From: Mesodorylaimus sp. YZB2_4
Taxonomy: Eukaryota > Nematoda > Enoplea > Dorylaimida > Dorylaimidae
DNA length: 64,000 bases
Assembly (NCBI GenBank): GCA_030248295.1
Contig: JASANH010000737.1
Location: 23,927-87,926 of the forward strand
Direction: 5' to 3'
Of the stretch, positions 3,301 through 60,814 are shown one piece after another; the first letter of the stretch is position 1; each line of letters starts with the position of its first letter. Position numbers and translations under genes: made by a program. The notes under the pieces were generated by a model that did not search any database, was not told the origin of the DNA, and was given only the letters and a program-made list of their open reading frames with translations.

Positions 3301-6300
3301 GGCGAATTTCGATAAGCATTCAATGATTCTAATTCTTGTTGTAAATTTTCTAAAGGGACATTAACACCAGCCCGTCTTGCCAATGCCGTAATACGAGCCA
3401 ATGGTGCACTTTCTTTCAATACGTCCAGCGGAAGCGGTGGAAGCTGAGAACGATGCGGGAGACCAGCCGCGCTTCGATTATTATTCAAAGCCGAACTATT
3501 GTTCTCCATCGATGGCATATTGCCCGATTCCATATTCGCCGTCAGGCTGTCTTCATCGAAACTTCTTGACATTCGTTTCCACTAAAATAAAAGAAACTAG
3601 AAACTCGTTTTTCAGCCTTTTGCAATGCGCTATGATTCGAAAAACTGATCACGAAATTGGTCAATTTGATTACCCTGATCAGATTTATCGGTTCTAAGCT
3701 TCTGACTCACCTTATGATTAGGCCAGCAAGTATTACCAGTTATCAGTCCAGTCAGTAAGACCATCTGATCAGACTCAGGGTGCAAAACACAAAAGTCTGA
3801 CTCCTCCAATAGGCCAGCTAGCGTAATCAGTCCAGCCGGTAAAACCATCTGGTCAGATTTATCAATCCGAACCCCAGCCTCTGACTCACCTGATAATCAC
3901 CCCGTCGCCCCTTCGGTCCACTGCCTGAGTAGTGCATGGCCGCTTGTTCGTAAATCATCGCCGCATTCTCTCGTTCAGAATATCGATCAAAAACGTACTC
4001 TAATTCTTTCACTAATTCTTTACGATCAGGCAAAGCTGGCACGTCCTCAGGCAATTCCACATGACGGGTATCAATATCAACTAGACAAATGTTCGACTAA
4101 AATGCAAAAAAATTAAGGAAACATTTATGAAATGTTAAAAAGTCCCTAAAAATTGCATACTTGAAGAACTTCTTCTGGAATGTTTTCTTCATACCAAAGG
4201 CCCATAATAAATGGCAAAGGTGCTTCGAGAAACATGGCTTGCGAATAAGGTATAATTGGGACATAAACGTGTTGCCAACGAAATGGGAATAAAAGCGATG
4301 TCAATGTTTCCGACACCAACATCAGTTGCTGAAGAACTGAAATAAACATTCGAAATTTTTAAGTGCAATTAAGAAAGGCGAATTCCAGTTTAAAAAATGT
4401 GACTTTTTAAAGTTTCTAAGCCCCCTGCTTTTAGTTCTATCCAAGCGAGAATGCCTCAAAATCTTTCAGTTACATCATTTTCTTCTTCGATTTTGTTTAC
4501 ATAGTTCACAGCGTTGAAGCAAGCGAACTCGCTGTATCGTGAAACGAAACTAATTTAATCATACAACTTCATCAAAAAGGCAGCAAGACTTCTAGAGCAG
4601 AAACGGTGAGATCGATCGCGCGAAAAAGGCGAGAACACGCGATGCGCCTCGCATCAGAAACAGAATAAAGGCTAGTAAGCGCAGAGAAGATAAACAAGAA
4701 ATTTTTACCTTTTGAACACAACAAAACTTGATGTTCGAGTAAAACGCATGTATAAACTTTCAAAAATATGTCCACCGGTAATAAATCAAAAACTTGTCGT
4801 AATGAATAATCGAAAAATGGCAATTCATTTATTCCTGGTCGTTGACATACAATGTCATTATTTGCCAAAGTTAGTTTTAAACTTCGCCCAGGCGGCGGTA
4901 ATGGAACTTCGTATAAAAGCCAATAAACGTAAGATTCCAAGGGCAAAGGTGGCGGATTTAAATTAGCAACAAACGAATATAGTGTCCTTAGAACACTCTC
5001 GCACGCACCCACCATCGGCAAACGAGTAGTCATGGCTAAACATTTGCAAACGAATAATTTATCTTTCGATGCGTCATAAAATGATGTCCGTTTCGATCGA
5101 TGACTACGACCTCGACGAGGCAACGTATGAGAGCCACCACGACTAGAACCACTCGATTCATCCTGAAACATGATGCTGATTGTGTGCTGTGTGTTCATGC
5201 TCCACATACTGCACAGTACGGCCTGCATGCCAGTATCAGCAGAAATCTCTGACTTGCAGGCTGCAGGTCGAGACTAACCAAATTATGTGATAGCAAGCGA
5301 TGGTGGCCAGACACTGTGATGGCAAGCTTAGCTGCCATTGGCTGCCGTCTCACACTGCACTGTCCAACAGTGCCACATTAGAAGAGTATTCTAACACAAT
5401 GCTTCTCTCATGTCATGTCAAACTTTATGATAGCCAAGCACTGTGCAGCGCACTCGAGTGCCAAGGTGAATATAGATTGACAATTATTTTTTACCTAGCC
5501 GATAGTCGACCTAGCGTGAGGCAGACGCCTTAACCCTCTAGGCCACGACCGGGATTTAGGCGCCCCTCACTTGCATTTCCTTGACAACTAAAACACGCTT
5601 TTCCGGATTCCCAAAAAACTTTAGCAGCAACTTTGCAGAAGTTTTCACTTCATCAATTTGATGCAAACCAAAACATTGGGTAATCAGGGTAACTATTGTA
5701 ACTGCTGCTAGTTCTTCTAAGCTTCCCCTTGTCTACTTTAGCAACCCCTAAAAAGTTTTCTGAGTCCGACACGCGATAGAGAAAAATTGCACTAAAATTC
5801 CTGGAGGTAATAGATGACAGAGAACAGACAAAAGGGGCCTGCTCACCAATCTCAATCGACTCGCCGAATGTTCGTCGTTTCCCGAATTGCCCAAAGCACC
5901 AGCCGACGGTCCATTACTTCCGGTCAGTTCACGCAGATGTAAACTATGCAAGGACTGCATGGCTTGAATAATATGAGCATGAACCACTTCTTCCCAAAAC
6001 GTCAATGCGCAACCATCCGAACGCGATCCATCGGCTCGAATACAAGCGAAAGTGTGAAACGAAGGTTCGGCTGGTATATCCTTCTGTGTACAGAATCGTA
6101 ATCCTTTCGGCAGGCATAACTGAAACAAAAATGATGCTTTATGATAGCTTGGAAACCAAGAAGAACTATATGCATTCCAAAGATCAAATTCGGATGCATT
6201 TTTGAAAAAGGACCTGTAAATGCGTACCGGAAGAATTTCCTCCGCGAATGGTTGCCCATCACGAATCTCTGGATAATGGCCCAATAATTTCGCCACATAC

Positions 6301-34800: not shown

Positions 34801-36239
34801 TGCTAGACCCGGTACTGTAAAAACACCGAAGTCGAGTGTTGGAAGCTTAATCGGAGCCTGAAATCCAAAAATCCAGTATGGAAAGCACCATGCGTGTTTT
34901 TCTCAACGCATGGGTTCTTTACTACTAAAATTGAATATCCGGTGAACTTCAGGCGCTGCTGACTGGTTGGCCAGCCGTCTCTAATATTTTTCACGGGGCT
35001 TCATTTCGCACCTGCGAACAAACTACAATTTCGGTTTCGAGAAGTTCGACCTGACGGGCGATGTTCCCCGATAACCAGCAAGAGCGTATTTTGGATTCTT
35101 AGTTTTACCTCTGATTCGGAACTGCTTCTTGCGATTACATGAATAGAATTTGCTGACTTGTTAAAACATTTAGTACATTCGTGGATGCCTGGTAAAGACC
35201 CATGTACTGTTGAGGGTTAGCGTCCAGCTTCTGCATTGTATCTGAAATTTGACCCAACCTAGGCGGAGTCGACTGGATTGTTACCCAGCTTTCGCTATCA
35301 AAACTAGTTACTTTGAGAAGTCTGTACCTGTTTGAATCGGTGGAGAATTCGAATTAGTCTGGTGCTAAACCACGAGCAACCCTTCCTTCCCGACGTCTAC
35401 AGTAGTTTTTCTTTCCACATAGACTTCAGCTGTTCGAAGAAATCTTCACTGTAAATAGGAAACTTGGTAAGAAAGCATACAAACAGAGTGGCTCAGTCTA
35501 GTCCAGTCTATATTTAGTTTAAAGCTGCACAAATACAGGCTTTACAGGCCAAAAATGAAGCCACGCCACGCCAGGCCAGATGGCGGTCGCTCTCATGGCA
35601 CGCGTGGGCGTCCTTTTACTTGTCCTTTTCGAGCGTGGGTGCGCCGAGATGTCTGCTAAAAGGTTTGTCTGCTTGGTGCGGGATTCCGGGGATCTGCAAA
35701 AATGCGCACTGTATATGTTGGTAACACAGGAGAATATGTATGGACAGAAGTCGGTGGGACAAGAACTCAGAATAGAGATAGACAGGTTGGGCGAGTGTAT
35801 CTCCCTCCTTGGGAAATATGGTTGTCAGTCTATCTCCTCGACACCGCTTTGTTAGCGCTATTTAATCTATGTTACCGCATACGAAATACATGTCATTCAA
35901 AAATGACTTGTCGTGGAGTGTTCTTATTTCTGGAAAGTTTCCAAGGCACATTGCGAATTCACGCTTGCAAGAGAGACACAAAATTCTATGATTAATGATG
36001 CAGAGGGGAAAAAGACCTCATCAGACAGGAACGTCAAATGCCTTGGCGTCAAACTCAATATGTTCATACTAGGGTGCAGAAAAAGATGTTCAACTTTGAC
36101 GACAGCTACTCTCTGAAAGGTCTCCGCTGTGCATTTCGTCAAAGGACTTCCCGCCTTGTTTCAACCAAAGTCAAAAAAGTGATACGTGGGTGGAAAATAT
36201 GAGGTGATACAAAATTATAACCCGCAACAACTGTCAATG
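34801..36239. other. Intergenic stretch, partly repeat, no gene recognised
   Basis: 34950-35060 is a further decayed family F arm (TTGGCCAGCCGTCTCTAATA). 35740-35820 shares AGTCGGTGGGACAAGAACTC with sequence near 49165 and 32540. A 91-residue frame at 35580-35855 overlaps this repeat and has no domain. Confidence 0.5.
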
Positions 36240-37110
36240 CGACCACATATCTTTGCTGGATTTGTCTCTCCAGCTTTAGTATTGTAACAAATTTCCTCGT
36301 CGTTTTGACCATCGTCTCCTCGAAATCACTGCACAATAAAAGTCAATTTCTGATCCTAAGCCACACAGCTGCAGACTTGGTGTCCATGTGCTGTTATTTG
36401 GGCACTGGTCTTTCTCGATATCTTGCTTATTTCTTTGAGAGACTAGAAACCTCGAATCAGTTGACTTGTATTTTGAAACAGGCTCCACTAAATTTTACAA
36501 CTGGCACAGTCAGACACTTTTTATTCGCTATAGCTTGCGATCGATTTATGGGCTTGGCGTTACCGCTTTTTTACAGAAGCCTTGATCCAAAAAAATATAT
36601 CTTATTCATTAAAATAGTTGTTTGGGGTTTCACTGCGGCAAAACTGACATTCGCCTTTCTGATACACAACAAAGAAATATTTTTCCAGTTTGCACTTTTG
36701 CAACTAGTTTTGACTCTAAATTTACTTCTTACGAGATCACTGAAACCAATGTTTCGACTTGCGGCACTGCATTAATTTATTTAATAACTTGTTCCATCAT
36801 ATTTTATCAATACAAATCGAAAAACTTTTCAAATGATTTTGTGAAAAAAGAATGGAAAAAGCAAATGGAATTTGATGTTTTTGTAGCCCTTGTAATAATC
36901 GCTGTGACATTTTTCCTTGGTTACGGAACCGGTATGATAGTCTCGTCGATTGCTGAACGTGTGCGCAGTCTTTCCTTCACTATTTCACTGGCCCCAATCG
37001 TGTCGGGTGTCTCCCCGTTAGATCAGCCTCCCATTTATTTATTTATTTGAAATTTTATGGTGTTTTCAGTGTCGCACTTTCACAAATGTTCAAAAAGTCA
37101 AACGACGTGT
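36240..37110 (+). pseudogene. Srsx-like 7TM receptor, copy A, broken
   Basis: It is homologous along its length to copies B and C. The amino-terminal codons and start ATG are gone: the frame reaches a TAA near 36220 with no ATG between. A one-base deletion near 36685 (before TTTGCACTTTTGC) shifts the frame in the second extracellular loop, and at least one further shift near 37005-37060 destroys segment seven, giving ISLAPIVSGV then a stop. Preserved parts include NKSQFLILSHTAADLVSMCC, QLTCILKQAPL, CDRFMGLALPLFYRSLDPKK and WKKQMEFDVFVALVIIA. It is a decaying tandem duplicate. Confidence 0.88.
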
Positions 37111-38859: not shown

Positions 38860-41096
38860 AGCTTGAGCTAAATCATAGAAAGCCGCGCATTTTTTCCAAA
38901 CAATGGCGACGATAGATAGAGACAATGTGCTCACATCCTCTTATTTATCCATATTTCTTGTCTCATGACCAGAGTTATTGTCTGTAAGGCGTCTGCGTGT
39001 TTGAGTCATGCCTCATTTCTAGTTTAAACTGGCTTGCTCGTGGAAGGAAGAGCTACCATACTGTACATAATCCTTCTACCACATCTATCTCCTGTAAACT
39101 TCTTGTTTTGACTTTTATGATTCTTCTGCATGTCGCCATAAAGCTCTCATAAAAGCCTCATAAAGCCCATAGCATAAAGAGAAGGTTTTTGTGCCACTTT
39201 GCATGCTGTGGTCCCTATGCAGGGTCCACGGTAAGGAGTGAGTATGATAGTTTGAAGCGATCCCGTAATACGCTGATTTATTTAGCCCCCTCGGTAAGGA
39301 TTTCTCATGTACATTACGTAGGAGACCAAGAAGAAATGGTAAAAGAATTTGTATTCGAATCCGCGAGGTTTCTTCTCCGTGATTCACTTGTTAGGAGCTC
39401 TGAGGTTTCTCAATAAAGATCCTCCAAAACTGTATGAGGAAAATGCCAATAGGAAGCGGCTTGTTTTTTAAACAATCGGGCAGCCAGGTGAACTGTGTTT
39501 CTACAGACCAGCATATAATATGGAATGCTGGAAAAAGACTTGTTTTTATAATCCAATTGGAATTTTGGCAAGCATTCCTAGCTGACATTCTAAAAACCCT
39601 GTCATTCTTAAAAATCCTTATCTGATGTAAGAGTTCTTATCCGAAATTTGTGCAGGAAATCTGGAAAGTCTAAGCATTCTTCTTGTGAGTCTTAGGAATG
39701 TTTTGTGAGCGTGTGGCCGCTGCACTGCAAGCCTCCAAACGCTGGACTAGAATGTTATGTCAAAGAAACTTATCATTCATTCAGGTCTGCGGCCCCAAAG
39801 CCAAAGTCTGTGATAGGTTTTTTGTATCATATACAGCTAAATATCACCTTGTGCCCCCGTGGCTATGGCATGTTGCGCGAGTGCTGAACAAGTGTTTCAA
39901 AAAGTACCGCGTTGGAACTATTCATGGCAATTAAGGCATTGATTGGATGGGAGCTGAGAGTACTCGGAAAGAATCCATGATCGAAGCTTACAGGAATTTT
40001 TCCGGTTGGACTTCTAAAGCTGGCCATAAGCGGTAGCAAAATGTACTGTCATGTCAAAATGACCTTGCAGCTGCTATGGTCGCTGATAATTTTAGCCACG
40101 GATGCATAATTAGCTACAGTATGGGGCTAGAAACCGACCATAAAAAATACGCAATACGCAAACTTGTATGCATACTTTGTGTAGTACGCAACTTGCGTAT
40201 TACGCAATACGCATACGCATTCGAGAGACTTTGCGTATACGCATACGCATTCAAATCAAGTATTTTTACCAACCGTACTGGCAACATCGAAGAAAACAAT
40301 GGCGGCAGCCAAAAATGCTGGCATCCCACGACCATACAGAGCACACCTCCGCACCAGGTGTTTTTCGGCATTGTGTTCTATGTAATCGTAAGAGCCGAAT
40401 ACTTGAATTCTCCCAGACACCTAGGAAGTTCATACCACCAGCAAGTTATGAAAGTTAAGCTTCCGGCGATGTAATACCTCGTCCAAGATGGAAGATTTCA
40501 ATTACCTACACTTTTTTCAGACAGTGATTCGGACTTTTATGTTTAAAGAAATGACGTATATTATTCTGCTGCGAATGAGGCATTTTCCACTGCATCCAAG
40601 CCTCTTGACGCTTATTTTCGTATACTGTATCTGTAGTCAATGCACGTTGGCCGAATATTTGAGGCGATACCTTTTACTAACTATTCTAGTTATGCTCACT
40701 CAATACTATGACTGTCAGTTTGATGCAACCATCCCATAATGCACCCAGCAATAATGCATCAACCTGCGTGACGCCATTGTTCCTACTCATTATCAAACAG
40801 AAAATGTCACTTTATCAAACGAAAATAACAAAGTCGAAAAGTTTTGGTTAGAAATGGCAACTGCCTTCGAGAAGCCTCTAATAGGCGCGCCTCCAATTAA
40901 AAAAAGGAGGTAAGCGCTCCACGTTCAGGCATTTTTCTAACACTGTTTTTGAGCTAAGAATTTGATGACGCCAGCAATTGCTAGCGTCATTAAAATGACA
41001 TCAAATCCATCGAAATTTGCACTGACATACTAAGATATGACATCCGTGCTCCCTCCCGCAGCAGAAACCAGTCACTTAGTAACTTCTCGCTAGATA
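38860..41096. other. Intergenic stretch before receptor copy B
   Basis: Apart from the TACGCA cluster at 40144-40262 I see no gene. The longest frames cover that repeat or have no domain. Confidence 0.45.
40144..40262. repeat. TACGCA-rich short repeat cluster 2
   Basis: This is the same hexamer composition as the cluster 1.4 kb upstream (ATACGCAATACGCAAACTTG and inverted TTGCGTATTACGCAATACGC). Open frames across it are artefacts. Confidence 0.7.
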
Positions 41097-42102
41097 ATGA
41101 AAATCAACTATTCGAACTTGAACAACGAGTCTTTGCGTTTATTAACTCAACAATCGACTACATATCTTTGCTGGATTTGTCTTTCCAGCTTCAGTATTGT
41201 AACAAATTTCCTCGTCGTTTTGACCATTGTCTGCTCGAAAACATTGCATAATAAAAGTCAATTTCTGATCCTAAGCCACACATTGGCAGACTTGCTGTCG
41301 ATGTGCTGCTATTTCGGCACTGGTCTTACTCGATATCTCGCCTACTACTTCGAGAGAACAGAAACCTCGAATCAATTAACTTGCATTTTGAAACAGGCTC
41401 CACTAAATTCGATCACTGGTACAGTCAGATACTTTTTATTCGCGATAGCTTGCGATCGATTTATGGGCTTGGCGTTACCGCTTTTTCACAGAAGCCTTGA
41501 TCCAAAAAAATACATTTTGTTTATGAATTTAGTTGTTCGGGGTTTTCACTGCAGCAAAATTTCCATTCGCTTTCTTAAAACACAATAAGGAAATAATTTT
41601 CCCGGTCTGCACTTTTGCTACCAGTTTCGACTCTAAATTCACTTCTTATGAGATTATTGAAACCATTGTTTCGACTTGTGGCACCGCATTAATTTATTTC
41701 ATTGCCTGTTCCATCATGTATTATCGTTACAAATCCGAAACCTTCTCCGACGATTCCGTGAAGCAAGAGTGGAAAAAGCGAATGGAATTTGATGTTTTCG
41801 TAGCTCTGGTAATAAGCGCTGTCACATTTCTTCTTGGCTATGGCACTGGTATGATAATCTCGTCGATTGCAGAACGTGTGCGCAGTCTGTCCTTCACTGT
41901 TTTATTGGCTCCAATCGTGTCGGCTGTTGTCCTTGTGGGATCAGCGTCTCATTTATTTATTTACTTGAAATTTAATGGTGTTTTCAGTATCGCATTTTCA
42001 CAAATGTTCAAAAAGTCAAGTGTTGTTCTCCCAATGGACGCGCCACCACAGCCAATGCCAGCAATCGTCCCCTCTGATCGTCAAGGAATTCCCATGAATT
42101 AG
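41097..42102 (+). pseudogene. Srsx-like 7TM receptor, copy B, one frameshift
   Basis: ATG at 41097 begins MKINYSNLNNESLRLLTQQS, matching copy C. The frame stays open to about 41545, where an extra T in GGTTTTCACTGC (copy A reads GGTTTCACTGC) shifts it at the end of segment four. The rest continues intact in the next frame to the TAG at 42100. All other marks are kept: QLTCILKQAPL, CDRFMGLALPLFHRSLDPKK, FPVCTFATSFDSKF, WKKRMEFDVFVALVISA and the segment-seven SASHLFIYLKFNG. AATAAA lies at 42153-42158. Because only one base in a T-run is involved, this could be a sequencing error or a very young null allele; otherwise the gene would give about 334 residues. Confidence 0.85.
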
Positions 42103-45344: not shown

Positions 45345-46560
45345 AAGAAGACCAATAGATTACTTAAATACGACATTGCTTATTATATTTTAATTTTCGA
45401 CGTTTCGTCTTATCTTAAGGCATCATAAGGATCTCATAAACACATCGTAAGGCGAGCAACGCATCAATGAGCTGGAAACGTATGGTAGCGCACACAATGT
45501 TGATTCTTAGGTAGCGACAGCCTATTGCAAAAGCGTGGATGTTCCAAAGTCCTCCTGCTTTTTTGAAGAAGGACGTTTGGTCACAATATTGATGGCTTCT
45601 TTGATCTTCGGGAGTTTGTCGGATCTTGCACGATCGATGATGCGAAAATCATCACAGCCAGCGTCATGTCCCGCTTGAAGCATGTGATCCAAGATAGCCG
45701 AATCCGCAGTGGCTCGAACACGATTCCCCGTTCGGAAAGAAGTGCTTGTGTGCTCGCCAATTCTCACGCCCAAGTGTCGGATCGTCTTTCCAACATACGT
45801 TGCATTACAGCAACGACAAGTGAACGAATAGGCGACGTGGGAGGCGAGTAAACGGGGCAGGCGATCTTTAATGTTGAAACGATCACCAATTCTTTCGCAC
45901 GTGGTGGAGATGAAGCGGAAATCGATCTGTGGATATGCTTGATGGAGAAGTCGGTACAAACGTCGGCGGATGATGAGACTGTGGTGGCCAATGAAGGGGA
46001 TCTTGATAAAGCGTGTTTCACGCGGGCTCGAGTTCCGATTCTTGGCTGCTGGAACCCGATACTGACTGGGCAGAAAGCGTCGCAAGACGTTGTTTATAAG
46101 TCATCGTGGATATCCGTTCTTGGTAATTATATCATTGATCTTGTTGAGCTCGTTATGCAGGAGGTTATAGTCGGAGCATAGCTAGTAAGCACGGTAGAAA
46201 AGAATCTGCAACAGACCTCTCTTATATCTGATTGGCATGCAACTTTCAAACTGGGTGTACAGGCCCGTGAAAGTTGGTTTTCGAAAAGTTGAGGTGCTAA
46301 AGCCCTTGTCTGATCGCAATATAGAGACCCCCCCCCCCCAAAATGAAATAGAGGCATCAGACTCAACCTCCACAGTGAAGCGCATGTTCTTGTGCTGTTT
46401 GTTTAGATAGGCAGAAAACTTGTTGGCTGCAGCATCAAAGGGAGTGGTTGTGTCATCCGCCTGTTGAGTATTGAAAAGGAGGAAAGTGTCATCCACATGT
46501 CTGCGATAGACCACAGGGGCGTAGCCCTTTGTGCAGTTTTGAAGCCATGACATTTCATGA
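45345..46560 (-). mobile_element. Penelope-like retroelement, 5'-truncated and broken
   Basis: On minus, 46553-46182 gives the end of the reverse transcriptase: YRRHVDDTFLLF (the catalytic DD), then KPTFTGLY and RYKRGLL, with a G-run at 46329-46338 and a TAG after FYRAY. 46085-45522 continues with RRLYRLLH and a GIY-YIG endonuclease domain: YSFTCRCCNATYVGKTIRHL, GVRIGEHT and a C-terminal helical stretch (KIKEAINI). A 3' terminal segment with the conserved CGAAACGTC end follows at about 45398-45430. GIY-YIG plus this reverse transcriptase is diagnostic of Penelope-like elements. The upstream two thirds of the reverse transcriptase are missing, so the copy is dead. Confidence 0.88.
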
Positions 46561-47544
46561 TGGGCTAGAAAGTCACCTATGCTCCTTACAGCCCAGACTT
46601 GGCTACTGGTAGCTTGTACATGTTTCCAAAAATGAAGAATCAGCTTTCCGGGGGCGCTTCTCGATTACAACTAGGAAGAGTCAAAACGAGTGTCCAAGAC
46701 TTAATTCGATAAATGGATTGAGCAAATGGATATGTGCATCAGAGCAGGTGGTGGGTGCTTCGAAAAACTGCCAACGAATAACACACACTGGGCTTCTGGT
46801 CCATGCTGCTCTAAAAACTTTTGGGGTGGCCCTCGTACTCGAGAGCTGGAGCTGTAAATCATTTGTACGATCCGCAGGAACTTGCCATCGATCTGTAGCC
46901 ACTCTGCCACTGATTAGCCCAGCCAATCTTGCTTTGATAACCAATCAACCCTGTATTTATGCTTGTAAGTGAGCGCACGCTTGCACTGTTGTGCTGAAAA
47001 ATCCTTCCGATATCTAAACAAAACTTTGTCATCGTCACTTGACAAGCTTCGCTGAAAGGCGACCATGAAAGCTTGAGTCTGCCGACATTTACAATTACGG
47101 GTATGTTGGGCGGAAGGTAATGGCAATGCGCATTCATGATGTGCCATCGCGTGACAACCGCCAACTCAAAAGAGTTCGTGGCCCCGTAAGGATGCATTAG
47201 CCATGAGAAAAGGTCATATAATTAGTGCGCCAGTCAGTCTGCACCTTTCTCGATTGGACAATGTCTCTTCATCAAATCAAATAAGTATTTCGGAGAGAGG
47301 TCCAAGGTCACGAAGAAACTGCCTTGCACGAGTTGTCTCCGATTTAGGCTTCTTCTTCAATTCATCTGAAAAACTTCTCTTATTTAGCATACCCGAGTCA
47401 TCTGTGCGTCAGCAGGATGGCAGAGGCTTGGATTGTATAGCGAATGCGCACTAATTGCCAGAACACGCCCTCAGTGTCCTCTAGTTCTTCTTACTCTTCC
47501 TCATCGGCACTATTCAGTCTGCTCGAGCAAGTTCTCTCGGCAAA
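46561..47544. other. Intergenic stretch upstream of receptor copy C
   Basis: No gene was recognised. Frames of 112 residues or fewer on both strands overlap one another and have no domain. The proximal promoter of receptor C should lie at its right end. Confidence 0.4.
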
Positions 47545-48558
47545 ATGAACATCAACTATTCGCACTTGAACAACGAGTCTTTGCGATTATTATCTCAGCA
47601 ATCGGCCACAAATATTTGCTGGATTTGCCTGTCAAGTGTCAGCATCGTCACTGATCTTCTCGTGTTTCTGACCATAACGTCCTCAAAGAAACTGCATACA
47701 AAAAGTCAATTTCTGATCCTAAGCCACACAGTGGCAGATTTTTTGTTCATGTGCGCTTACTTAAGTACTGGTATTTCCCGTTATCTCGCCTATTCCTTCG
47801 ATAGACCAGAAACTTCTGATCAGTTGACTTGCATTTTGAAACAGGCTCCATTAACTTTTTTCGCCAGTGCTGTCAAAATGTTCTTATTGGCGCTAGGTTG
47901 CGATCGATTTTTGAGTTTGGCATTTCCAATATTCCACAGAAGTCTAAATCCGAAAAAATATGTCCTGTTTGTTAATTTTGTTGTTTGGGGCTTTATTGCG
48001 GCGAAACTGCCATTCGCCTTTTGGATACACGACAAAGAAACTATTTTCCCAGTTTGCACTTTTGCTACCAGTTTCGATTCTAAATTTACTTTTTATGACA
48101 CTATTGAAACCATTGTATCGACTTGTACCACTGCATTGATTTATTTCATGTCTTGCTCCATCATGTATTATCGTTATAAGTCAAAGAAATTTTCTCAGGA
48201 TTCTGTGAAAAAAGAATGGAAAAAGCAAATGGAGTTTGATGTTTTTATTGCCCTGACAATAATCGCTGTGATTTTTCTCTTTGGCTACGGAACTGGTATG
48301 ATAATCTCGTCCATTGCAGAGCGTGTGCGTAGTCTTTCTTTCACTATTTTCTGTGCACCAATCGTGTCGGCTGTTGTCCTTCTCGGATCAGCGTCCCATT
48401 TTTTTGTATATTTAAAATTTAATGGATTATTTAGGATCTCTTTTTCACAAGTGTTCAGAAAGTCTAACGTCGCTTTCCCGATGGATATGCCCCTGCAGCC
48501 AGTGCCTCAAATGGTGGCTGTTGTGCACTCTGACCGTCCTGATAGCCCTGAGAGCTAG
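47545..48558 (+). CDS. Srsx-like 7TM receptor, copy C, intact
   Basis: A single 337-residue frame starts at ATG 47545. Hydrophobic segments lie at about residues 24-44, 54-78, 98-119, 139-160, 187-208, 231-254 and 266-290. C96 (QLTCILKQ) and C171 (FPVCTF) fit the disulfide between segment three and extracellular loop two. CDRF (119-122) takes the place of DRY, followed by LAFPIFHRSLNPKK in loop two. The basic loop WKKQMEFDVF precedes segment six, and AERVRSLSF is strictly kept between all copies. Sites for N-glycosylation occur at the amino end (NYS, NES). No intron is present. AATAAA is at 48673-48678. This layout resembles nematode Srsx chemoreceptors; the ligand and the neuron type are unknown. 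Confidence 0.87.
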   Translation: MNINYSHLNNESLRLLSQQSATNICWICLSSVSIVTDLLVFLTITSSKKLHTKSQFLILSHTVADFLFMCAYLSTGISRYLAYSFDRPETSDQLTCILKQAPLTFFASAVKMFLLALGCDRFLSLAFPIFHRSLNPKKYVLFVNFVVWGFIAAKLPFAFWIHDKETIFPVCTFATSFDSKFTFYDTIETIVSTCTTALIYFMSCSIMYYRYKSKKFSQDSVKKEWKKQMEFDVFIALTIIAVIFLFGYGTGMIISSIAERVRSLSFTIFCAPIVSAVVLLGSASHFFVYLKFNGLFRISFSQVFRKSNVAFPMDMPLQPVPQMVAVVHSDRPDSPES

Positions 48559-51360: not shown

Positions 51361-51384
51361 GTTTGTTAGTCTAGACTGACAAAC
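51361..51384. promoter_or_regulatory. GTCTAGAC palindrome upstream of peptide gene 1
   Basis: A near-perfect 24-base palindrome centred on GTTAGTCTAGACTGAC lies about 320 bases before the ATG of peptide gene 1. A diverged copy with the same GTCTAGAC core and the preceding CGCAGTTTATCA lies upstream of peptide gene 2. Its function as an operator is inferred from conservation only. Confidence 0.45.
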
Positions 51385-51627
51385 TTCCAATCATTATGCA
51401 ACGGCTCCAATATCAATTATGCAATCAAAAAAGTGTGGGCGCACGTAAACCTCATTTTTTTAACCTAAAGACTAGCCATCGATGCATCATGCCTTTTAAT
51501 GACGATAAATTTGTATTGCGCCCGCAGAATTTTAGTTTGAAATTCTGCTCAACATCTTTTGTTAAACTTCGATTTCTAATTCGTAAAAGTTCAGCCTCGA
51601 TTTCATTCAATTTGTCAAAAGAATCTG

Positions 51628-51634
51628 TATAAAA
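51628..51634 (+). promoter_or_regulatory. TATA box of peptide gene 1
   Basis: TATAAAA lies 72 bases before the ATG at 51706. Paralogue 2 has TATAAAAA in an equivalent position. Confidence 0.6.
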
Positions 51635-51705
51635 GGAAGGCTCTGGTTTTCAAAGTAACAGCCACTTGCAATTAGCCAGTGAAGTGAAGACATCCCGAGG
51701 TGACC

Positions 51706-52581
51706 ATGGCTTCAGTATTTAGACGATTTGATGTCTTATTTGTTTGCTTGTGTCTCATTATTTCTGTCGAGCCACTTCCTGTAGGACACAGGGACCACGT
51801 GATGATATGTCCATCGCGATTTGGAGACGAGGGTTGTCGAACTGTTCCGCACTCAGACAAGAAGGTCCAAGAGCAAAATGATCAGTAAGTACATGGCGGC
51901 GAAGTTCAGCACTCAACGCTTTAGAACAGAGAAGTAATCATTAATAAACCAAACATTTCAAAGATATCGAAAAATTGAAAAATAAACTGCAGTAATCTTT
52001 TGTATCATGTCATGTCATCATGTCATACTTTATCCATAGCCAAGCACCATAAGGCGCATTTGTATGACCGTTTCTAGAAACGTAAACGTGTTTCCTCCAC
52101 TGCTCCATTCTGCGCGTTTCGGTCGCACAGGACATTGATGAGGAAAGTTTACTTGATATAGAATGCTAACGCTCGCGGGAAATTTAAAATAGTAAAACTA
52201 GGAATAGAACAAGGCCCTGTTTTTTGCACATTTACTAATTTTTAACACTTTCCACAGTCACTATAAGCCGCAGTTTTTAGCGCTGGTCCGCTCTTACCTC
52301 TCAAAATACGATTAGACTCACAGAGAGCCTTGATAGCTGACTCGTGGTTATCAGTCGACTGCAATGTCGAAGGCGCGAGTTCGAATCCCTCTCAGGCCTA
52401 AAATTTATGAGCATATTCCTGGATCTTGAAGCTAAGTTCACGTTTGGTACTAAGTGCATGATCCAGTCGAGATCCACACAAATCGCATTCATTTCAAACA
52501 CTCATCTCAACATGTCTCAAACATACCATTTTTAGGAAACGGTACAAATCATTTTTGATTCGGCGCCCACTGGTTGGTTGA
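51706..52581 (+). CDS. Small secreted peptide precursor, family member 1
   Basis: Exon one, 51706-51884 (179 nt), and exon two, 52536-52581 (46 nt), join in phase 2 to 74 residues. The start is a hydrophobic signal peptide (FDVLFVCLCLIISVEP). A charged middle follows with a C-x8-C loop (CPSRFGDEGC). The last exon reads KR, then YKSFLIRRPLVG and stop. A KR site before Tyr and the terminal Gly fit processing to a C-terminally amidated 11-residue peptide; that is inference from general prohormone rules. The intron is 651 bases because a SINE fragment (51995-52066) and a tRNA-like block lie in it. I know of no family with this tail. It could instead be a small defence peptide. Confidence 0.72.
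51995..52066 (-). repeat. SINE tail fragment in the intron of peptide gene 1
   Basis: ATCATGTCATGTCATCATG, then ACTTTATCCATAGCCAAGCA and CATAAGGCGCA, is the 3' half of the tRNA-derived SINE read on minus. Confidence 0.7.
52318..52402 (+). other. tRNA-Cys-like sequence, probably a relic
   Basis: It has an A-box-like TAGCTGACTCGTGG, a hairpin TCGACTGCAATGTCGA with GCA in the loop, and a B-box-like AGTTCGAATCCC. The anticodon loop does not have a regular seven bases and the acceptor and T stems pair poorly, so a functional tRNA is doubtful. Confidence 0.35.
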
Positions 52582-54580
52582 CTTCAGGCGAGCCACGAAC
52601 AATGGAGCGTACTTTATCTTGAAAAGATGAAGCGGCTGTGCAGGCTCAGTGAACACTCGCTCGCACTATATATGTGCTGATTCACATCCACGAGTGGTGA
52701 CAATACACATACAGTACATAAAAATCGGCCTCATCCTCGAGTTTATGCTATCAGCTTCCGTCAGCTTACACAATTAGGCAGGCTGAAAAGATATGTCAGC
52801 ACACCCACTCCCACTCCCACTGTGGCCCCTATCACGCTAGGCGAGTGCAGGTACCAGTCAGTCGGAAAGATGGCGGCGATGACATAAAAGCTATTAGATA
52901 AACAAATAAATTCCAGAGCAAAGAGCGCAGAAACTGAAAATGGCTTTCGATGGAACAAAACGCACGCCGATTTCGTTATCAGAAAACCCCTGCAAGAATC
53001 CTCATTCTTAGAGGCAAGCATATATCGAAGTTTAGCGGAAAGGCGTGAAACTTGCTGAGAATAGTTTGGTAGAGAGCAAGAAACCTGTCTGAGACAACAA
53101 AAGTTGGCACTGACCATTGTCCACTCGGATTTAGGAAATGGTCTTTTGATCATTCTCTGCCAATCCACACTGGCGAAAGGTAGTCCATCACGTGCAAACT
53201 ACATATAGCGCAGATAAGGCTGGACAATTTTGTTATTTGAGTCAATTCGTCCTTGCTGCTTCAAAAAAAAAAAAGATTGCATTCCAGATTAATCCACCGT
53301 TTCCGCTCTGAGAAAGTCCCTTCAGAATAGACAGGGGAGGCCTGAAAGGGGTCAAAAACCGCTTGTCTCCTGACTTCTGCTAGAAATATAGGAACTCTGT
53401 GGCGCAGAGAGGACTTTTGACGCTTAGTTTCTGCTGTGCATGTGGGTTCGCACCCTACCAAGCTCACTTCCTTTTGACATCTGAAATAATTTTTTTTTTG
53501 TTCCACAAGCATGAATTCCTTTTCGATGATTATTGATATATTCTTTCATATTTTTCCTCTAATAGTTTCAAAAATCAATGTTCTACTTTTTGCGCTGAGT
53601 TCGTCGTCGTGTAGACATGAAGACGCGCAGCCCGTATTCGTGCATACAGTTTGAAACCAGAAAAATCTCAACATCAAATTACGGAAAATAAATGAAAACA
53701 ATATTATTATTATAAAAGAACTGACATCGCTTCGTGTGAGACTGTATTCTGACTTTTGACATTGTTCAGGTGAGCGTTTACAGTAACCCCAACCCGCAAT
53801 CTCTCTGTTCACCATTTGAATCTTACGCCATTTGTGATAAGTGGCTAAAAACGACCCTGCTTGAGGTAAATTCTTGCATACTCAATAAACTCTGTGCTCG
53901 CATTCTCGTAGAAAAACGAGCATACTCTCGCTCTTTCACGCCCGATGATATGCATTTCATCTACATAGAAAATTCAAGCGATACATAGCCGAAATGTGCG
54001 ATTGTTAGGATCCTGCATCAGCCAGAGAAAAAAGTCGTTGAGTTAATCAGTGCGAAGTTTTCTCGAGCGGCCAGTAACTCTTGATCACAATCAACACCTA
54101 TTCGAAGACGGTTCAAAAGTTCATCGTGAAAGCCTCTCGCGACTTTTCTCTATCAGGCTTCTTTCCAATTACTTCGCAAAGCGCTTTACAGAGCTGATCT
54201 GTCACCTTCGGTTCATTGCGATTCTGCAAATTTTCACCACCACACCTATCTCTTTCCGTTTCACCCAACTGGTCGCCTGCTCCTTCTATAATTTGATATT
54301 CGCCCACATTTAGTTACTAGTCATTTACTCACCTAAGCTTAGTTTCGCGTGTTTTACATAATTCACTTGAAAAACGCAGCTGAACCTGATTCACAGAGCA
54401 TGGAAGGCATGCTGATGGTGCATTAAAGTGAGGTCAATCCAACCAGAAATGTTATTAAAAACTAAGCGGAAAGAATCATAATCCGCATTTATAATCCGCA
54501 GTCCAACTGCCGCGTTGGCAATTATGCAGCAGCCCTTTCAATGCGAATACGCCATTAAGGAAGTCACCAGGACACGAATA
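52582..54580. other. Stretch between peptide genes 1 and 2
   Basis: 54270-54390 resembles 51145-51235 (ATAATTTGATATTCGC and ACATAATTCACTTG), so the upstream region was copied together with the gene. A minus frame of 135 residues (52761-53168) has a hydrophobic stretch but no recognisable family, and I do not call it. Confidence 0.5.
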
Positions 54581-54585
54581 TACCC

Positions 54586-54610
54586 GCAGTTTATCAGTCT
54601 AGACTAGACG
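54586..54610. promoter_or_regulatory. GTCTAGAC element upstream of peptide gene 2
   Basis: CGCAGTTTATCAGTCTAGAC, about 200 bases before the ATG, matches the palindrome at 51361-51384 with partial loss of the right half. Confidence 0.4.
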
Positions 54611-54735
54611 TCAACCCCGGCTATGGATCAGGGCTTTGAATGAGGACAAAGTTCAACACAGCTGCGTGACAAGAACTGAAATTTTAGTATGGAGTTTAGA
54701 TTCTGATCAGGTTTTTTCATCGCCTGAGCAGCGGG

Positions 54736-54743
54736 TATAAAAA
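54736..54743 (+). promoter_or_regulatory. TATA box of peptide gene 2
   Basis: TATAAAAA lies 66 bases before the ATG at 54809, preceded by GCGGG. Confidence 0.6.
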
Positions 54744-54808
54744 TCGGCGCGCGGTTTTTTTTGACACAGTCAGTGGCGATCAACCCCACCTACGACCGTA
54801 AGCCGACC

Positions 54809-55193
54809 ATGATTTCTGCAGACACACACTTAATAGTCACTTTTACTTGTTTGTCTGTGATTATTCAAATCCAGCCACTGGTTATAGATGACACCAAGCA
54901 AATAGTTATCTGTCCGTCGCCCTGGAGTTCAGAGAATTTTCGAACTATACCTACGTCAAACAGGCCAACTCAAGGTCGAGCTGGAAAGTAAGTTCACATA
55001 AGATACCTGGAAATATTCTAGGTCGTATTTGATGTGTTTTAGACCAGGATGATGGAAAAGAGCAAGCCTGAGTTTCAGCGACAATCAGGAGCATGTGCAG
55101 GTTCCACCAAGCAAAGAACAATATAACTGAATTTGCCTTGTTTTCAGGGAGCAATATAAATCCTTTTTGATTCGACGACCTTTAGTGGGATGA
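54809..55193 (+). CDS. Small secreted peptide precursor, family member 2
   Basis: Exon one, 54809-54987 (179 nt), and exon two, 55148-55193 (46 nt), have exactly the lengths and phase of member 1 and give 74 residues. A signal peptide (LIVTFTCLSVIIQIQP) is followed by VICPSPWSSENFRTIP, which aligns with ICPSRFGDEGCRTVP in member 1 but has lost the second cysteine. Exon two reads EQYKSFLIRRPLVG and stop, identical to member 1 over the last 11 residues. The dibasic KR before the tail is absent here (AGKEQ), leaving the internal RR as the only pair. The intron is 160 bases. I chose the ATG at 54809 because it places the hydrophobic stretch right after it; the open frame extends upstream only through a non-ATG start. 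Confidence 0.72.
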
Positions 55194-56470
55194 AGTCGTG
55201 GAAAGACAGTCGTCTAATATCTCTGACCATGAAAACAGAAGATCATTTATGACGATGTTTGTTATCCAGTAAAGTCATGTGTCATGTGTAAAGTCAGACT
55301 TTTGCGATAATTCTGTGAAAATCAAGTTTGTCTAAAAAGGCATTGTTGCTTTGCTGAGCTATTCACTCTTTAGCCAAACACTTATCGATGCGCTTGAACG
55401 GCAGAGGACATGTGTCAAAGAATGATTAAACGAACTGAATGTCTAGAAAATTCCCTGAGAAACAAGACGTCTAAATGCATTGAATGGACCAAGAGCAATA
55501 TCGCTATTGTACTCATTATCAGTCTGGACCCACTACGATGAGCGGCGTCAGATGGCGGGGTGGCTCGTGGCATTTATCATGTTCATGTTCATATTCATGT
55601 TTTACTGTGACCCAAAGCAACCGAAGCGCACTAACTGATACAGACACAAATACAAGAAGAAAGAAAGAAGTCTAAAATGTCAAGGAAAAACCAAAAGCTT
55701 TAAAAGTCGCCAAATCTGAAAAAACAGTATCCTCAGGTATCATCTATTTTCTTTGGGAATATACACGCCATGGTGCGAGCCAGAGCTAGCACCACACATG
55801 GCTATATACTTAAGTAATCTAAGGCTCCCTGAACGCCTATAAAACCGGTTCAGCATGCTCCGACGGGTCGACCATCAAGCTGAAATTCAAAAAAATGGGC
55901 TTCCAAGGCCTCTTCTTGAAATGATATCGCAAAAATAGTGAGTGCTGAAGGTTTTTAAGCACAAATGAGGAAGTGACGTCGACATTTTGCTTCATTCCCG
56001 AAAATGGGCGAATCAGTTTGAATTTGGCGCACTTGTTGTGATGTTCAGGTGCGACGAGGGGTTTCACGTACAGAATGGATTTGTGTGGGAGCCTTCTGTT
56101 GTATCGATCGATATCCCGGTCGGCCTTGGAATGATCTTTATTCCACTCTTTATGCTTTTCTCGGTCTCGCGCCAGCGCGCACCTTATTGCAATGCTGGCG
56201 GAAGAATACCTGCGAGGCGCCAAATTCAAACTGATAGGCGTAATTGAGGAAAAGCAAAGGTCCTGATGAATCGACCGAAAAGAAGACAAGCAAGTTTGAG
56301 GACTTGAACTCACAATACTGGGCAAAATAAAAATTTGTTTCGAAATCAAACAATCAATCAAAAAATCGATCAAAAGTTGAAAGCTTGCAGCAGTCGACCA
56401 GAGCCGCCTACATCTTCCTCCTCCGCCACAGCTAACCATTTTTCACTTTTTGTGAGCCTCTTTTCCGTCC
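55194..56470. other. Stretch downstream of peptide gene 2
   Basis: 56173-56250 is a plus-strand copy of the RGG-exon start seen at 27424 on minus (acceptor GTCTCGCGCCAG, then RAPYCNAGG). A 200-residue minus frame (55837-56439) covers this repeat and shows no domain. Confidence 0.45.
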
Positions 56471-56479
56471 TTCTAGGAT

Positions 56480-56925
56480 ATTATATCCAAAAAAGTCTGT
56501 TATGACAGACTCGAAACTTCTAAACCAGCCAATGCACACAGTGGAACCACGGCTAAGGATGGCTGGTCTCAACATGTTGGGCGCTGCCCATAGCGTGTAA
56601 TCGCTCACACATATACAGTATACTGTATATGTGCATTGAGATGTCAGCGTCAAATCCAGAAAGCTTGTGTTCTGTGCACTTCAGCTGTTCATGCAGGCTC
56701 TCCAAAGGCAGCTGTGCTGTTTCACGTGAGCAACCTAAACACGCCAAAGCTGTAGCGCTGCGAGTGAAGTGATATGGCTTATCCTTACATGCCTAAACCT
56801 CGAGAAACACTGGAAAATCCTTCCCCCCCTTTTTACTTTATGTTCACGCTCATGGTTAATCATATCAGTAACGAACCGCTCGAGGATGAAGGAGCACATG
56901 ACACAAAATGATCTGCAACCACGTC
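56480..56925. repeat. Uninterrupted copy of the repeat that is split at 20404-21260
   Basis: It reads AAAAAAGTCTGTTATGACAG, AACCAGCCAATGCACACAGT, GTGTTCTGTGCAC, GTTCATGCAGGCTC, directly CCAAAGGCAGCTGTGCTG, AAGCTGTAGCGCTGCGAG and TCACGCTCATGGTTAATCAT. The last 40 bases resemble the SINE body (GGATGAAGGAGCACATGACA). Confidence 0.75.
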
Positions 56926-57940
56926 AATTTTTATCGAAATCTGTCCAGTACCTGACGAGTGACGGACAAAAACAGCTGAAACAGTGAGTATTTTAAGGAA
57001 TAACTTTCCAGAATTGAAGCTTCACAAAAATGATTGTCAAAAGGCAGAGTCAGAAAGCTTCAGCTTTCAGAAAAACTAACATTTACAACTGTACGACCTC
57101 TAGTTGTTGATCGAGGCACATGTTGTCTCCTCCTCATCCTCCTCGTCTTCTCCCCCCCCCCCCCTGGACAAGAAATTAGCGTTGTGCGTCTGGTTGGCTG
57201 GTCTGTGCCTGCTGAATCGCAACCTGGAGCAGATTTCAGGCGCAAGACCACAGAGAAACGTAATATTATCAAGTAAGGCTCGAAATGGGAAGTGTGATGG
57301 CGTCTCTTTGAGTCAGATATCATATGTTTTTTTTGGAAAGGTCGCCTGAAAATCGGGACAATAGATCAGTGAAACATCAGCTGGACTGGCTGAAGGTCGC
57401 CCTCGAGAGACACTATGACCCTGAGAAGCACTCTGCATAGTCTCTATGATCTGTAGCTTTGAACGCAGAGCAGATGGTGGAGAATGGGAAGCTTATAAGT
57501 CAGTTAGTGGCGAATAACGTGCTTCAACCCACCGTGCGTCTCAGAAGAGCCCCTGATCCATTAATGAATAGCTCTGAACAACCTTCCCCGGCCTGCGGGA
57601 AACGGCCAAAAGCTGCGCATCGCCTTAGGCGATGTTTCCACAGCCAAGAACGAATGAAGCGAAAACGCTTAGTAAGAATATTGACCTTCCTAGAAATAGT
57701 GCAGCAAAACTGCCCGACAGTCGCAGAACTTCCTCGCTGCTCCCACAAGCATAACTTTGGACGCGGTCTAAGGCATTAACCAACTGGCAGACTCACTGTA
57801 GATCCTGTTGATCCAGATTTTTCCTAGCATGGAATTTTTGGCGGAATCTGTCTAAGCTAACATGATGAAATGTTTCTTCAATCAGGTTATGTGCAAGGAG
57901 CGGAACCCCACCCCGCTTATTGCCTCCCCCTAACTTACAA

Positions 57941-58375
57941 GGAAACATCGCCAACCGTCAAGTCGAACTTTGAGAAACCAAAAATTGTAATACAGGTATG
58001 TTCCTAGGTTCAAAAGAAAGTTCTGTGCAAAATATTATAGGCGTCTGGTCAACTGGTCAGCAGTGGTCAGCGTCTAAAGTCCAGAATTTTTGTGTGTTAA
58101 CGAAGCTGAGCGTTAAGAAAAACACGCAAAGATTTTTTGGTTCAGAGCTTCGAGTTTAAGCTTCCAACACTCAGGTTTGGGGTTTTTTGCCGGGAAATCC
58201 CAAAAAATACAGCAGGACTTGAAACTTTCACTGTACTCTTCGCGCTGACCAAAAGTGACCAGTTGGCCAGACGCCTCTAATATTTTGCATAGAGCTTTTT
58301 TTGCACCCAGGAACATGTTACAATTTTTGGTTTCCCAAAATTCAACTTAACGGCTGGCGATGTTTCCTTGATAGT
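57941..58375. mobile_element. Foldback element, family F, best-paired copy
   Basis: AAGGAAACATCGCCAACCGT at the left and its inverse GGCTGGCGATGTTTCCTTG at the right form the ends. The arms continue with ACCAAAAATTGTA/TACAATTTTTGGT, GTGCAAAATATTATAGGCGT/CGCCTCTAATATTTTGCAT and TGGTCAGCAGTGGTCAGCG with its complement. Arms are about 160 bases and the loop about 100. Confidence 0.8.
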
Positions 58376-58841
58376 GGATAAAAATTCGCAACAGACCTTG
58401 CATCTCGTGTGATGCAGTTGAAATTCGGCGTACTGATGACAGGTGATATCCTCGTTGTGGGTCTCTGATATGTACTGTACGTGCGCAGCGCTTGATAGCT
58501 TGACCACGCCTATGGTTACTTTGGATTGGTCGTGTTAGCTCCACCTACCGCCTTTATATTCTGTATGCCCGCATGATTTTGCGCACTTGCTTTGCATTCC
58601 GACTAGTAGTTTGGTGTTTGGTAAAATCGATTAGAACTCCGTGTCTTCTGACTAAACCACCATACATAACAGTCTCGACACAACTGGGCCAGGAACAGCT
58701 GGATACTGAAGAGGGTTAATCACTTGCATTTCACGGTTTTCGCGGATGGCCTGGACATCGAAAATTTCCATCCGGAAAATTTTTATGTAGAAAACATGGA
58801 TCTTAGGTAGAGCCTAGGTCCATGGTTTTACCTTGTTTTTA

Positions 58842-59080
58842 GCCACCCTCATAACTTTTATTTGAACTTCAACCCATATCAGTTTCCAAAAACGTTTCGA
58901 ATCCTTATCAAAGAATGCGGACATTATTCACCTGATCAATGTATCAATGCACTGACCAGCATCTTGAGCAGCACTGAAAATAGCAGTCTTTTCTCAACCT
59001 GCGACTACCAAAAGGACCAAGAAAAATTCGCACCCGCACAATTTCCAAAGCCTGGAACCGCGAAATTGAAGCGATTTACA
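58842..59080 (+). CDS. Unassigned internal exon, partial gene
   Basis: Between an acceptor (CTTGTTTTTAG) and a donor (GTATGTG) lies an open frame of about 79 codons beginning HPHNFYLNFNPYQFPKTFRI, with cysteines in ECGHYSPDQC and FSTCDYQ. Composition looks coding, phase in 2 and out 1. A possible next exon is 60231-60262 (after TTTTATTGCAG, before GTAAGT), which would continue VGDYDLRQDHP in phase. I could not find further exons or a family, so this may be chance or a fragment. Confidence 0.35.
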
Positions 59081-59544
59081 GGTATGTGAAATTCTGTCCG
59101 TGTCTGTGTCTTGCAGCCTTGCGTCGTAGTGCCCGCACCATAGTGATGGCGTTCCTTTTCGACACGCGACTGCATTTTCTCGTGCCCCGCCCTATATGGA
59201 ACTTGGATCAGATCCAGTCAGAACAGGTTGAGGTAGCGATTTGTTGATTGTGGTCGTTTCTTCACAAAGTCAATAATCATATTTTTCCTGGCACTTGTTA
59301 GAAGTAAACGACAGCAACTAAAACACGCGCATTGGAGGCCCAGACGCAGATACAGTAGGAAATTTGAGCCCGCCCTCGCAGGTATTTATGTGACCAAGGC
59401 TATTATTTATCAACCTGTTTTCTATAAACCTACGGGTGAGCCACAGTCAGACCATTGCTCGATTGTTGGATGGTCATCTTTTTTTAACTGCTATGACTTA
59501 AATCTTTTATATTTTTGTATCTTCTTCGTGATTTGTCTCGCGTG

Positions 59545-59616
59545 TTTGTACCCGAATGTGTCTCGGACCTTGAGTGCGCTTCAGCGTTTGGCTAATAAAT
59601 AAAACATGACTTGATG
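59545..59616 (+). repeat. SINE tail fragment
   Basis: TGTGTCTCGGACCTTGAGTG then CGCTTCAGCGTTTGGCTAAT and AAAACATGACTTGATGA is the 3' half of the SINE family. Confidence 0.6.
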
Positions 59617-60325
59617 AAAATGATTCACCGCAGTTAGTTCAAGCAAACAAATGATGATCAAACAACTTTTCTCGTCGGTTCTTGCATCACCCACTTCGTG
59701 AAGCTGGGTATCTAGTTCGGTTGCCCTAAGAGGCCGCCTTATACACGGAGCGGTGTATCGTCTCGCCTTCATGGGCCGGTCGATGCGGGATGATCCAGGC
59801 GGGATGATCTCTGGTTCCTACGACTTGGGGACCTGCTTGGAGTGCTTTTGAGACCATTTCCTCATCGCGGTATCTGCTCCGATGCTCGGTCATTCAGACT
59901 ATTGCGGTACCTACAACCTCGCAGTTAGTTTAAGCAAACAAGCTCTAGCTAGCTTTTACTGTCAGCGACTCGGCTACAGTGCAGTACATCATTGTGGGGC
60001 GGCCGAGCCATATATCATTGCCCATCTGCCTGCCTGCGCACTCAGCGCGTTTCATCCAACTGATGCTCGTTGCATTAAAAAAGCCTTGTACCATGGGCTA
60101 AAAAAGAAGAGATGTTGTTAGCTTTCAATGTTTCCGCAACTTGTTTTTTTATGCAGCTCAACAGAACAGTTTTTGACATGACAGACCACTCCTCGAAACT
60201 GGGAAGCTTTATCCATTGATTTTATTGCAGTCGGAGATTATGACCTTAGACAAGATCATCCAGTAAGTCTACAGCTCACTTACTGTAGGCCCTGTTATGC
60301 CAGCCCTTTACCCCCTGTTTCGATC

Positions 60326-60616
60326 CTAAGCATGCCATAATTCTTTGACGGATAAGAATGATTCAAGCAGCCTCTCCCAGATGTGCCGCCCACATATCAC
60401 TGTCACAACGACTCCAAAGAACACTCCTCACTTGTTTCCTTGATTTTGGTTGTTTCCATTGCGAGACAACTGAATAACTCGACATTTTGTTGAACGCCAC
60501 GGCGAAGGGCACACACTCACTGTTTTCACATCACCTCCATTACCCGACATAGCGTGACCAATGAGGAATGGACAAAGTAGGGTCAGCAGAACAAGCTTGA
60601 AAAAAAGTTTAGCCAT
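60326..60616 (-). CDS. Small secreted peptide precursor, family member 3 (diverged)
   Basis: Exon one, 60432-60616 (185 nt), encodes a signal peptide (FFKLVLLTLLCPFLIGHAM), then VCPSPWRSTKCRV with the same C-x8-C spacing as member 1, and ends in phase 2 at GTGAGG. The best exon two is 60326-60371: 46 nt, exactly as in the other two, reading LLESFLSVKELWHA and stop after the split Lys codon. It keeps only SFL of the shared tail and has no terminal Gly. The intron would be 60 bases with a weak pyrimidine tract, so exon two is less certain than exon one. A TATTTAAG box lies 48-55 bases upstream of the ATG. Same family by signal, CPSPW block and exon structure. Confidence 0.6.
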
Positions 60617-60663
60617 GGCGACTAACGATTCTTAGACACTGAGCAGTACATCGAATCCTATGA

Positions 60664-60671
60664 CTTAAATA
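60664..60671 (-). promoter_or_regulatory. TATA-like box of peptide gene 3
   Basis: TATTTAAG on minus lies about 50 bases before the ATG at 60616, in line with the TATA boxes of members 1 and 2. Confidence 0.45.
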
Positions 60672-60814
60672 CTCATGTGAAGTCGATAAAAATTTGATAA
60701 AAGGATGATATTGACCTTTCTGTTCTCTAATCTCATTCTACCTGGCTCGTATGTGACGAAAAAAGGTAGTCGACGGAGAAAGCAATGACAAGATAGCACC
60801 ACCTCCGCCTGTTC

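Follow-up and report, generated by a model that had tools for sequence, protein, structure and literature searches.

Candidate precursors of C-terminally amidated peptide ligands in an apparently undescribed gene family of the nematode Mesodorylaimus sp. YZB2_4

GPR15L and Sex_peptide are small secreted receptor ligands, and neurotensin is a vertebrate peptide ending as a free acid. Elevenin is given as a C-x8-C-R-G motif in the excerpted part of PMC10175484. Among nematode neuropeptide-like proteins (NLPs), RPamides (nlp-2, -46, -85 to -87) derive from secreted precursors in which a short conserved motif ends in an amidation glycine. Likewise, the 64,000-nt stretch analysed here (the window), positions 23927-87926 of contig C340 in the 145-Mb, 1067-contig assembly of Mesodorylaimus sp. 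YZB2_4, carries three small genes (members 1 to 3) for predicted secreted products with such a tail. An earlier note on this DNA had proposed that these genes form a family, with short secreted products and a constant exon architecture. We extend this family from three to at least 24 two-exon loci in this genome, 23 of them sound and one (C171_a) tentative. Judging from the sequences, it is fairly probable that the products are precursors of secreted peptide ligands that carry a C-terminal amide and make up a nematode family, the tail being probably the signalling peptide. Names such as C26, C49 or C171 designate other contigs of the same assembly, and suffix letters separate copies.

Members 1 and 2 lie on the forward strand and comprise the following features.

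51628..51633, + strand: TATAAA box of member 1, starting 78 nt before the ATG (same distance in the paralogue C26_a)
51706..51884, + strand: member 1 exon 1, with the putative signal peptide and a C-x8-C loop (paralogue C26_a)
51885..52535, + strand: member 1 intron, 651 nt, phase 2, GT...AG
52536..52581, + strand: member 1 exon 2, encoding KRYKSFLIRRPLVG-stop
54736..54741, + strand: TATAAA box of member 2, starting 73 nt before the ATG
54809..54987, + strand: member 2 exon 1, with the putative signal peptide and F in place of the second Cys
54988..55147, + strand: member 2 intron, 160 nt, phase 2, GT...AG
55148..55193, + strand: member 2 exon 2, encoding EQYKSFLIRRPLVG-stop

For both genes, the architecture proposed earlier (exons of 179 and 46 nt, phase 2, 74 amino acids each) agrees with the coordinates and the GT...AG borders. 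The two products had been described as identical over their last 11 residues; the identity stands, but it extends over 12 residues (YKSFLIRRPLVG). Within this tail 8 of the 12 codons differ between the genes (9 bases), and every change is synonymous. The proportions of synonymous and nonsynonymous differences (pS/pN) are 0.915/0 in the tail, 0.536/0.467 in the middle and 0.422/0.397 in the signal region. Because all tail changes are synonymous (pN 0), the tail is presumably coding and under strong purifying selection and, on this pattern, its sharing by members 1 and 2 is not due to chance.

Member 3 lies on the opposite strand, where the second exon had to be relocated.

60432..60616, - strand: member 3 exon 1, 185 nt, with the putative signal peptide and a C-x8-C loop (99% copy on C839, paralogue on C26)
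60098..60431, - strand: member 3 intron as corrected, 334 nt, phase 2
60052..60097, - strand: member 3 exon 2 as corrected, 46 nt, encoding PWYKAFLMQRASVG-stop and ending YKAFLMQRASVG (matching exon in C26_b)
60326..60371, - strand: exon 2 of member 3 as given in the earlier note, encoding LLESFLSVKELWHA; rejected and read here as intron

The 185-nt first exon proposed earlier was retained; exon 1 of another family member matches it at E 3.1e-5 in a whole-genome search. The second exon proposed earlier, at 60371-60326 after a 60-nt intron, was abandoned: its acceptor is weak, with only 5 of 12 pyrimidines before the AG, and its stop codon is absent at the aligned place in the C26 paralogue despite a well-conserved exon 1. 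The acceptor of the 60097-60052 exon, CTCTTCTTTTTTAG, has pyrimidines at 12 of 12 positions. The corrected product ends ...GNNPWYKAFLMQRASVG, and the equivalent exon of the C26 paralogue encodes SWYKAFPIQRALVG-stop. Member 3 very probably also carries the family tail, to judge from this model, and a tail common to all three members makes the case for a family stronger than in the earlier one. When the window was scanned for an AG followed by a 46-nt exon with the tail profile, all three exons scored 14 of 14. With both strands scanned, no other place in the window exceeded 7 and none in 60 simulated windows exceeded 8; the profile had been widened after member 3 was seen, an earlier version scoring member 3 at 10. 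A family motif placed in a separate 46-nt exon is easily missed in gene reading, and family comparison can be used to correct gene models.

The family was then sought in the whole assembly. A degenerate tail DNA pattern, allowing up to 2 mismatches, was found at 77 places versus 78 for the reversed control, a count that alone is no proof. Among the places chosen, 18 regions on 13 contigs were taken for translation under a rule that required a stop within 25 residues but did not require a final Gly. They yielded 17 tails on nine contigs, 16 of which end exactly at Gly-stop, and no tail in the regions on C186, C77, C183 and C486. An AG stands exactly seven bases before the Tyr (or equivalent) codon in 15 of these 17 tails, followed in 14 cases by a 46-nt exon to the stop, which is lost in one C299 copy; the remaining two (C14, C21) have longer exons in the same phase. 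Protein searches with exon 1 gave 22, 15 and 7 overlapping matches, adding further copies.

In the resulting plan, a predicted signal peptide is usually followed by a Cys loop, a single phase-2 intron interrupts the gene, and the tail resembles YK[ASG]FLI[RQ]RPLVG. Exon 1 measures 164-185 nt in 23 of the 24 loci and the last exon 46 nt in 21 (61, 67 and 52 nt in the other three). The intron is in phase 2 throughout, as the exon finder demanded. The loop is C-x8-C in 11 loci and C-x9-C in 10, and is missing from member 2 (C340_m2), C14 and C21. In the tail, the most constant columns are K (24 of 24), final G (24), Y (22), F (21), I (20), R at -4 (20), V at -1 (19) and P (18), and at -5 there are 17 members with R and 7 with Q; the search pattern, rule and profile reward these residues, so that the invariance of K is partly due to selection, which does not apply to the Gly of the first pass.

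That the tail is under the strongest constraint while the middle varies, as suggested previously, is borne out by 20 members compared in all pairs: pN is 0.165 in the tail, 0.491 in the middle and 0.489 in the signal region (counted before four members were added, with a one-codon splice error in the C21 row). Two pairs agree with this constraint, C157_a/b (tail pN 0, pS 0.346) and C49_c/d (tail pN 0.037, pS 0.34); single-pair figures rest on few codons and are weak evidence either way.

Several copies are not counted among the 24 loci. These are the copy of member 3 on C839; C299_b, C299_c and the L039 5988 copy, allelic to C49; a C49 tail without exon 1 (L031); an exon 1 without start (C115/L057); C232 and C171_b, with an exon 1 and the tail absent from the examined stretch; and the exon-1 matches C21:543750 and C273:80083. 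Some of the 24 loci, for example the C340/C26 pairs, could be highly divergent haplotypes.

As judged from these comparisons, the family is one that spread by tandem and segmental duplication, its middle diverging far more freely. The window segment and C26 share stretches at 70-87% identity, including Srsx receptor genes and members 1 and 3, and C839 holds a near-identical copy of the member 3 region (99% over 550 bases). Between C49 and C299, identity is 91-96% in the four longest shared stretches (about 1.0-2.8 kb) and 74-96% in shorter ones; the two contigs are most simply read as two haplotypes. In a protein tree of the 24 members, members 1 and 2 join C26_a (98/97) and member 3 joins C26_b and C164 (89/91), so that the genes of the window fall into separate groups. 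The bootstrap of this tree was not settled and its two longest branches (C21, C14) are unsure. Adjoining the C49 family cluster, L031:4230-9322 contains a run of long frames resembling, by eye, a long terminal repeat retroelement.

Upstream of the genes, a TATA-like box had been placed 50-70 bases before each ATG. Such boxes are present, but the distance holds only for member 3 (TATTTA, at -55), since the TATAAA boxes of members 1 and 2 start at -78 and -73. Of 20 members, 15 have enough upstream sequence, and 5 of these carry TATAWA no more than 130 nt before the gene, against 6.7% of random window positions; the five include the close pair of member 1 and C26_a.

The suggestion that the terminal Gly serves amidation gained from the larger sample. 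An amidation-type Gly precedes a stop or a dibasic site in all 24 loci: it is the last coded residue in 23, and in the tentative C171_a, which ends PLVGKR-stop, it is followed only by KR. A GKR-stop ending is the usual signature of amidation plus cleavage. The exon 1 N-termini contain strong hydrophobic stretches, and 35 matches in the genome are to copper type II monooxygenase domains, of a Pfam family (PF03712) which we take to include the amidating enzyme PHM. Exon matches to this family, Cu2_monoox_C, cluster on C57, C341 and C273, which suggests an expansion of copper monooxygenases in this genome.

In the pathway we envisage, the signal peptide would be removed, the two cysteines would form one disulfide and the PHM/PAL pathway would convert the final Gly to an amide, once KR has been trimmed off in the one member that has it. 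The tail, about ...YKAFLIRRPLV-NH2, would then be read by a receptor, most likely a G protein-coupled receptor (GPCR). A Pro follows the basic pair inside the tail in most members and should shield this pair from convertases. The mature product probably takes one of two forms. It may be the entire chain, about 45-55 residues long, that begins with a disulfide loop and ends in the amidated tail, in which case a dibasic site before the tail is not required. Alternatively, a short [ASG]FLIRRPLV-amide may be freed at the invariant Lys, used as a monobasic site.

Several points weigh against amidated ligands. The signal peptides were called by hydropathy and not by a trained predictor. A dibasic site is found within 4 residues before the tail in 2 of the 24 members (any basic residue in 11), so that release of the tail by classical convertases is not a general rule. 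PF03712 presumably also spans enzymes other than PHM, and hormone genes do not usually occur at 24 or more loci. The close pair C115_a/C97 gives no sign of constraint on the tail (pN 0.18, pS 0), C299_c, outside the 24, has lost the stop after Gly, and in C171_a, the sole GKR member, the start is uncertain and the donor weak.

Other explanations were weighed on the same data. That the loci are non-coding or decaying repeats merely resembling genes could be argued from the few copies lacking a start, exon 1 or stop (L057, the L039 5988 copy, L031, L039 2523). Nevertheless, the tail changes between members 1 and 2 are exclusively synonymous and the 46-nt last exon recurs; this explanation appears largely refuted by the substitution pattern, and we give it almost no credence. 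Tandem expansion, short secreted chains and mostly two Cys would also suit secreted immune (antimicrobial) peptides, cationic, amidated and tandemly expanded, that act on microbial membranes, and amidation is common among antimicrobial peptides. However, the strongest conservation concerns one exact motif instead of general charge or amphipathicity, and the rest diverges far more. The family, with normally two Cys, also differs from the nematode groups in the available part of PMC10506718, where the cysteine-defined ones have at least six Cys and the cecropins and glycine-rich peptides are linear. An antimicrobial role is unlikely in our view.

The many copies, the fast-changing body and the clusters on C49/C299, C106, C117, C157 and in the window could instead point to proteins that the worm releases to act outside its body, as pheromones or as seminal or host-directed products, the tail serving for recognition; no Pfam match over cut-off speaks for such a use, which we judge improbable. 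It is very improbable that the products are elevenin/SNET-1-type two-cysteine peptides to which a tail was added: the C-x8-C spacing of 11 members (C-x9-C in 10), often followed by R, fits this idea in part, but no member has the conserved Gly after CR, and the loop is the variable part and is lost altogether in three members. Secreted precursors of an amidated ligand remain the reading that we favour. If it is correct, the tail represents a peptide signal without described counterpart in the data searched, from what is probably a poorly studied branch of the nematodes, and its unusual evolution with a fixed tail, a free body and more than 20 loci would aid the search for its receptor.

A narrower version, which we regard as rather unlikely, is a lineage-specific hormone or pheromone signal outside the canonical-SL1 nematodes, with one amidated tail kept nearly constant while the bodies of the duplicated precursors, over 20 in number, diverge freely, and possibly read by the adjoining Srsx/Srw-type receptors. 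The assembly contains TTAGGC runs (972 and 921 matches, where the reversed control gave 0 and 1), and it has chemoreceptor matches of Srsx, Srw and Srv type; both features point to a nematode. Canonical SL1 had no match in the genome when as many as 2 mismatches were allowed, suggesting that the lineage is not one of the groups using it.

Three tandem Srsx-type GPCR genes lie upstream of the peptide genes in the window (36221-37050, 41094-42102 and 47485-48558, + strand), the first two split into two frames by introns or decay, and similar Srsx copies flank a family member on C26. This proximity in C340 and C26 results from their shared duplicated segment. The closest Srsx paralogues outside these two contigs (on C177, C4 and C384) have no known family member on the same contig, among 119 of 337 candidates scored. 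A more distant paralogue, C10:923292 (E 2.4e-13), is about 6 kb from the C10 member, a proximity that may or may not reflect linkage. Further receptors, at L041:3196-4422 and L040:7962-9292 (both - strand), lie near the two C106 members: one is of Srw type (E 1.4e-26), and there are frames of rhodopsin type (E 2.9e-18, and E 0.00069, under cut-off).

Elsewhere in the window, exons of a DENN/dDENN-domain gene occupy 2811-5273 (- strand). At 45522-46664 (- strand), a match to GIY-YIG, weak at 18.7 bits against a cut-off of 22.6, stands beside a frame with a YRRHVDDT motif, which we take to resemble that of reverse transcriptases, the frame having no Pfam match; this is perhaps a Penelope-like retroelement, and similar sequence is found near the C21 member (L042:5513-6114). 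Inside the member 1 intron, 52310-52400 looks, by eye, like a tRNA with a B-box-like stretch, possibly a short interspersed element. ARAGORN and Rfam gave no match in the window, this stretch included.

The earlier description of the family as unrecognised holds for the proteins, Pfam, the PDB and the open papers searched, with other nematode genomes and transcriptomes outside this range, and the family is apparently undescribed and real-looking as far as sequences tell. A 15-row family alignment, in which one row held the rejected member 3 tail, shared words with 217 candidates among 5.8 billion proteins, none at E <= 10. A control query with a window Srsx receptor found only two proteins in this set, on contigs of 1111 and 1385 bases. 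Such few control matches indicate a protein set poor in nematodes, which makes the family blank weak evidence, and restriction of the family to this lineage is an unproven reading. The same alignment retrieved a single PDB row, a dynein light chain (E 0.49), taken as chance. Searches for tail strings in the open literature returned only unrelated papers (FLIRRP, RRPLVG) or none, and the novel NLP motifs quoted in the accessible portion of PMC8764417 include none like the family tail.

No Pfam match exceeded the cut-off among the members scanned (fewer than the 24). The best weak matches were GPR15L (PF15854; E 0.0055 and 0.03, 17.4 and 15 bits against a cut-off of 27), DUF4627 (0.045) and KYNU_C (0.067), and Sex_peptide (PF08138) matched weakly in one of 15 (E 0.36). 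The GPR15L matches begin in the signal peptide and reach the Cys loop but leave the tail uncovered. With neurotensin, the family has in common an Arg-Arg-Pro followed by hydrophobic residues at the C-terminus, a short and probably convergent likeness. Elevenin/SNET-1 (NLP-83) resembles it in part, through two Cys soon after the signal peptide, at a spacing of eight in 11 of 24 family members and of nine in 10. In contrast, CRG occurs in none of the 24, and conservation in the family lies in the C-terminal amidation tail while the loop is variable. The RPamides end in ...RPG, whereas the family tail ends in RP-x-x-G, with two residues between the P position and Gly in all 24 members; unlike the RPamide motif, this tail stands once per precursor, at the extreme C-terminus, and in a family of many loci.

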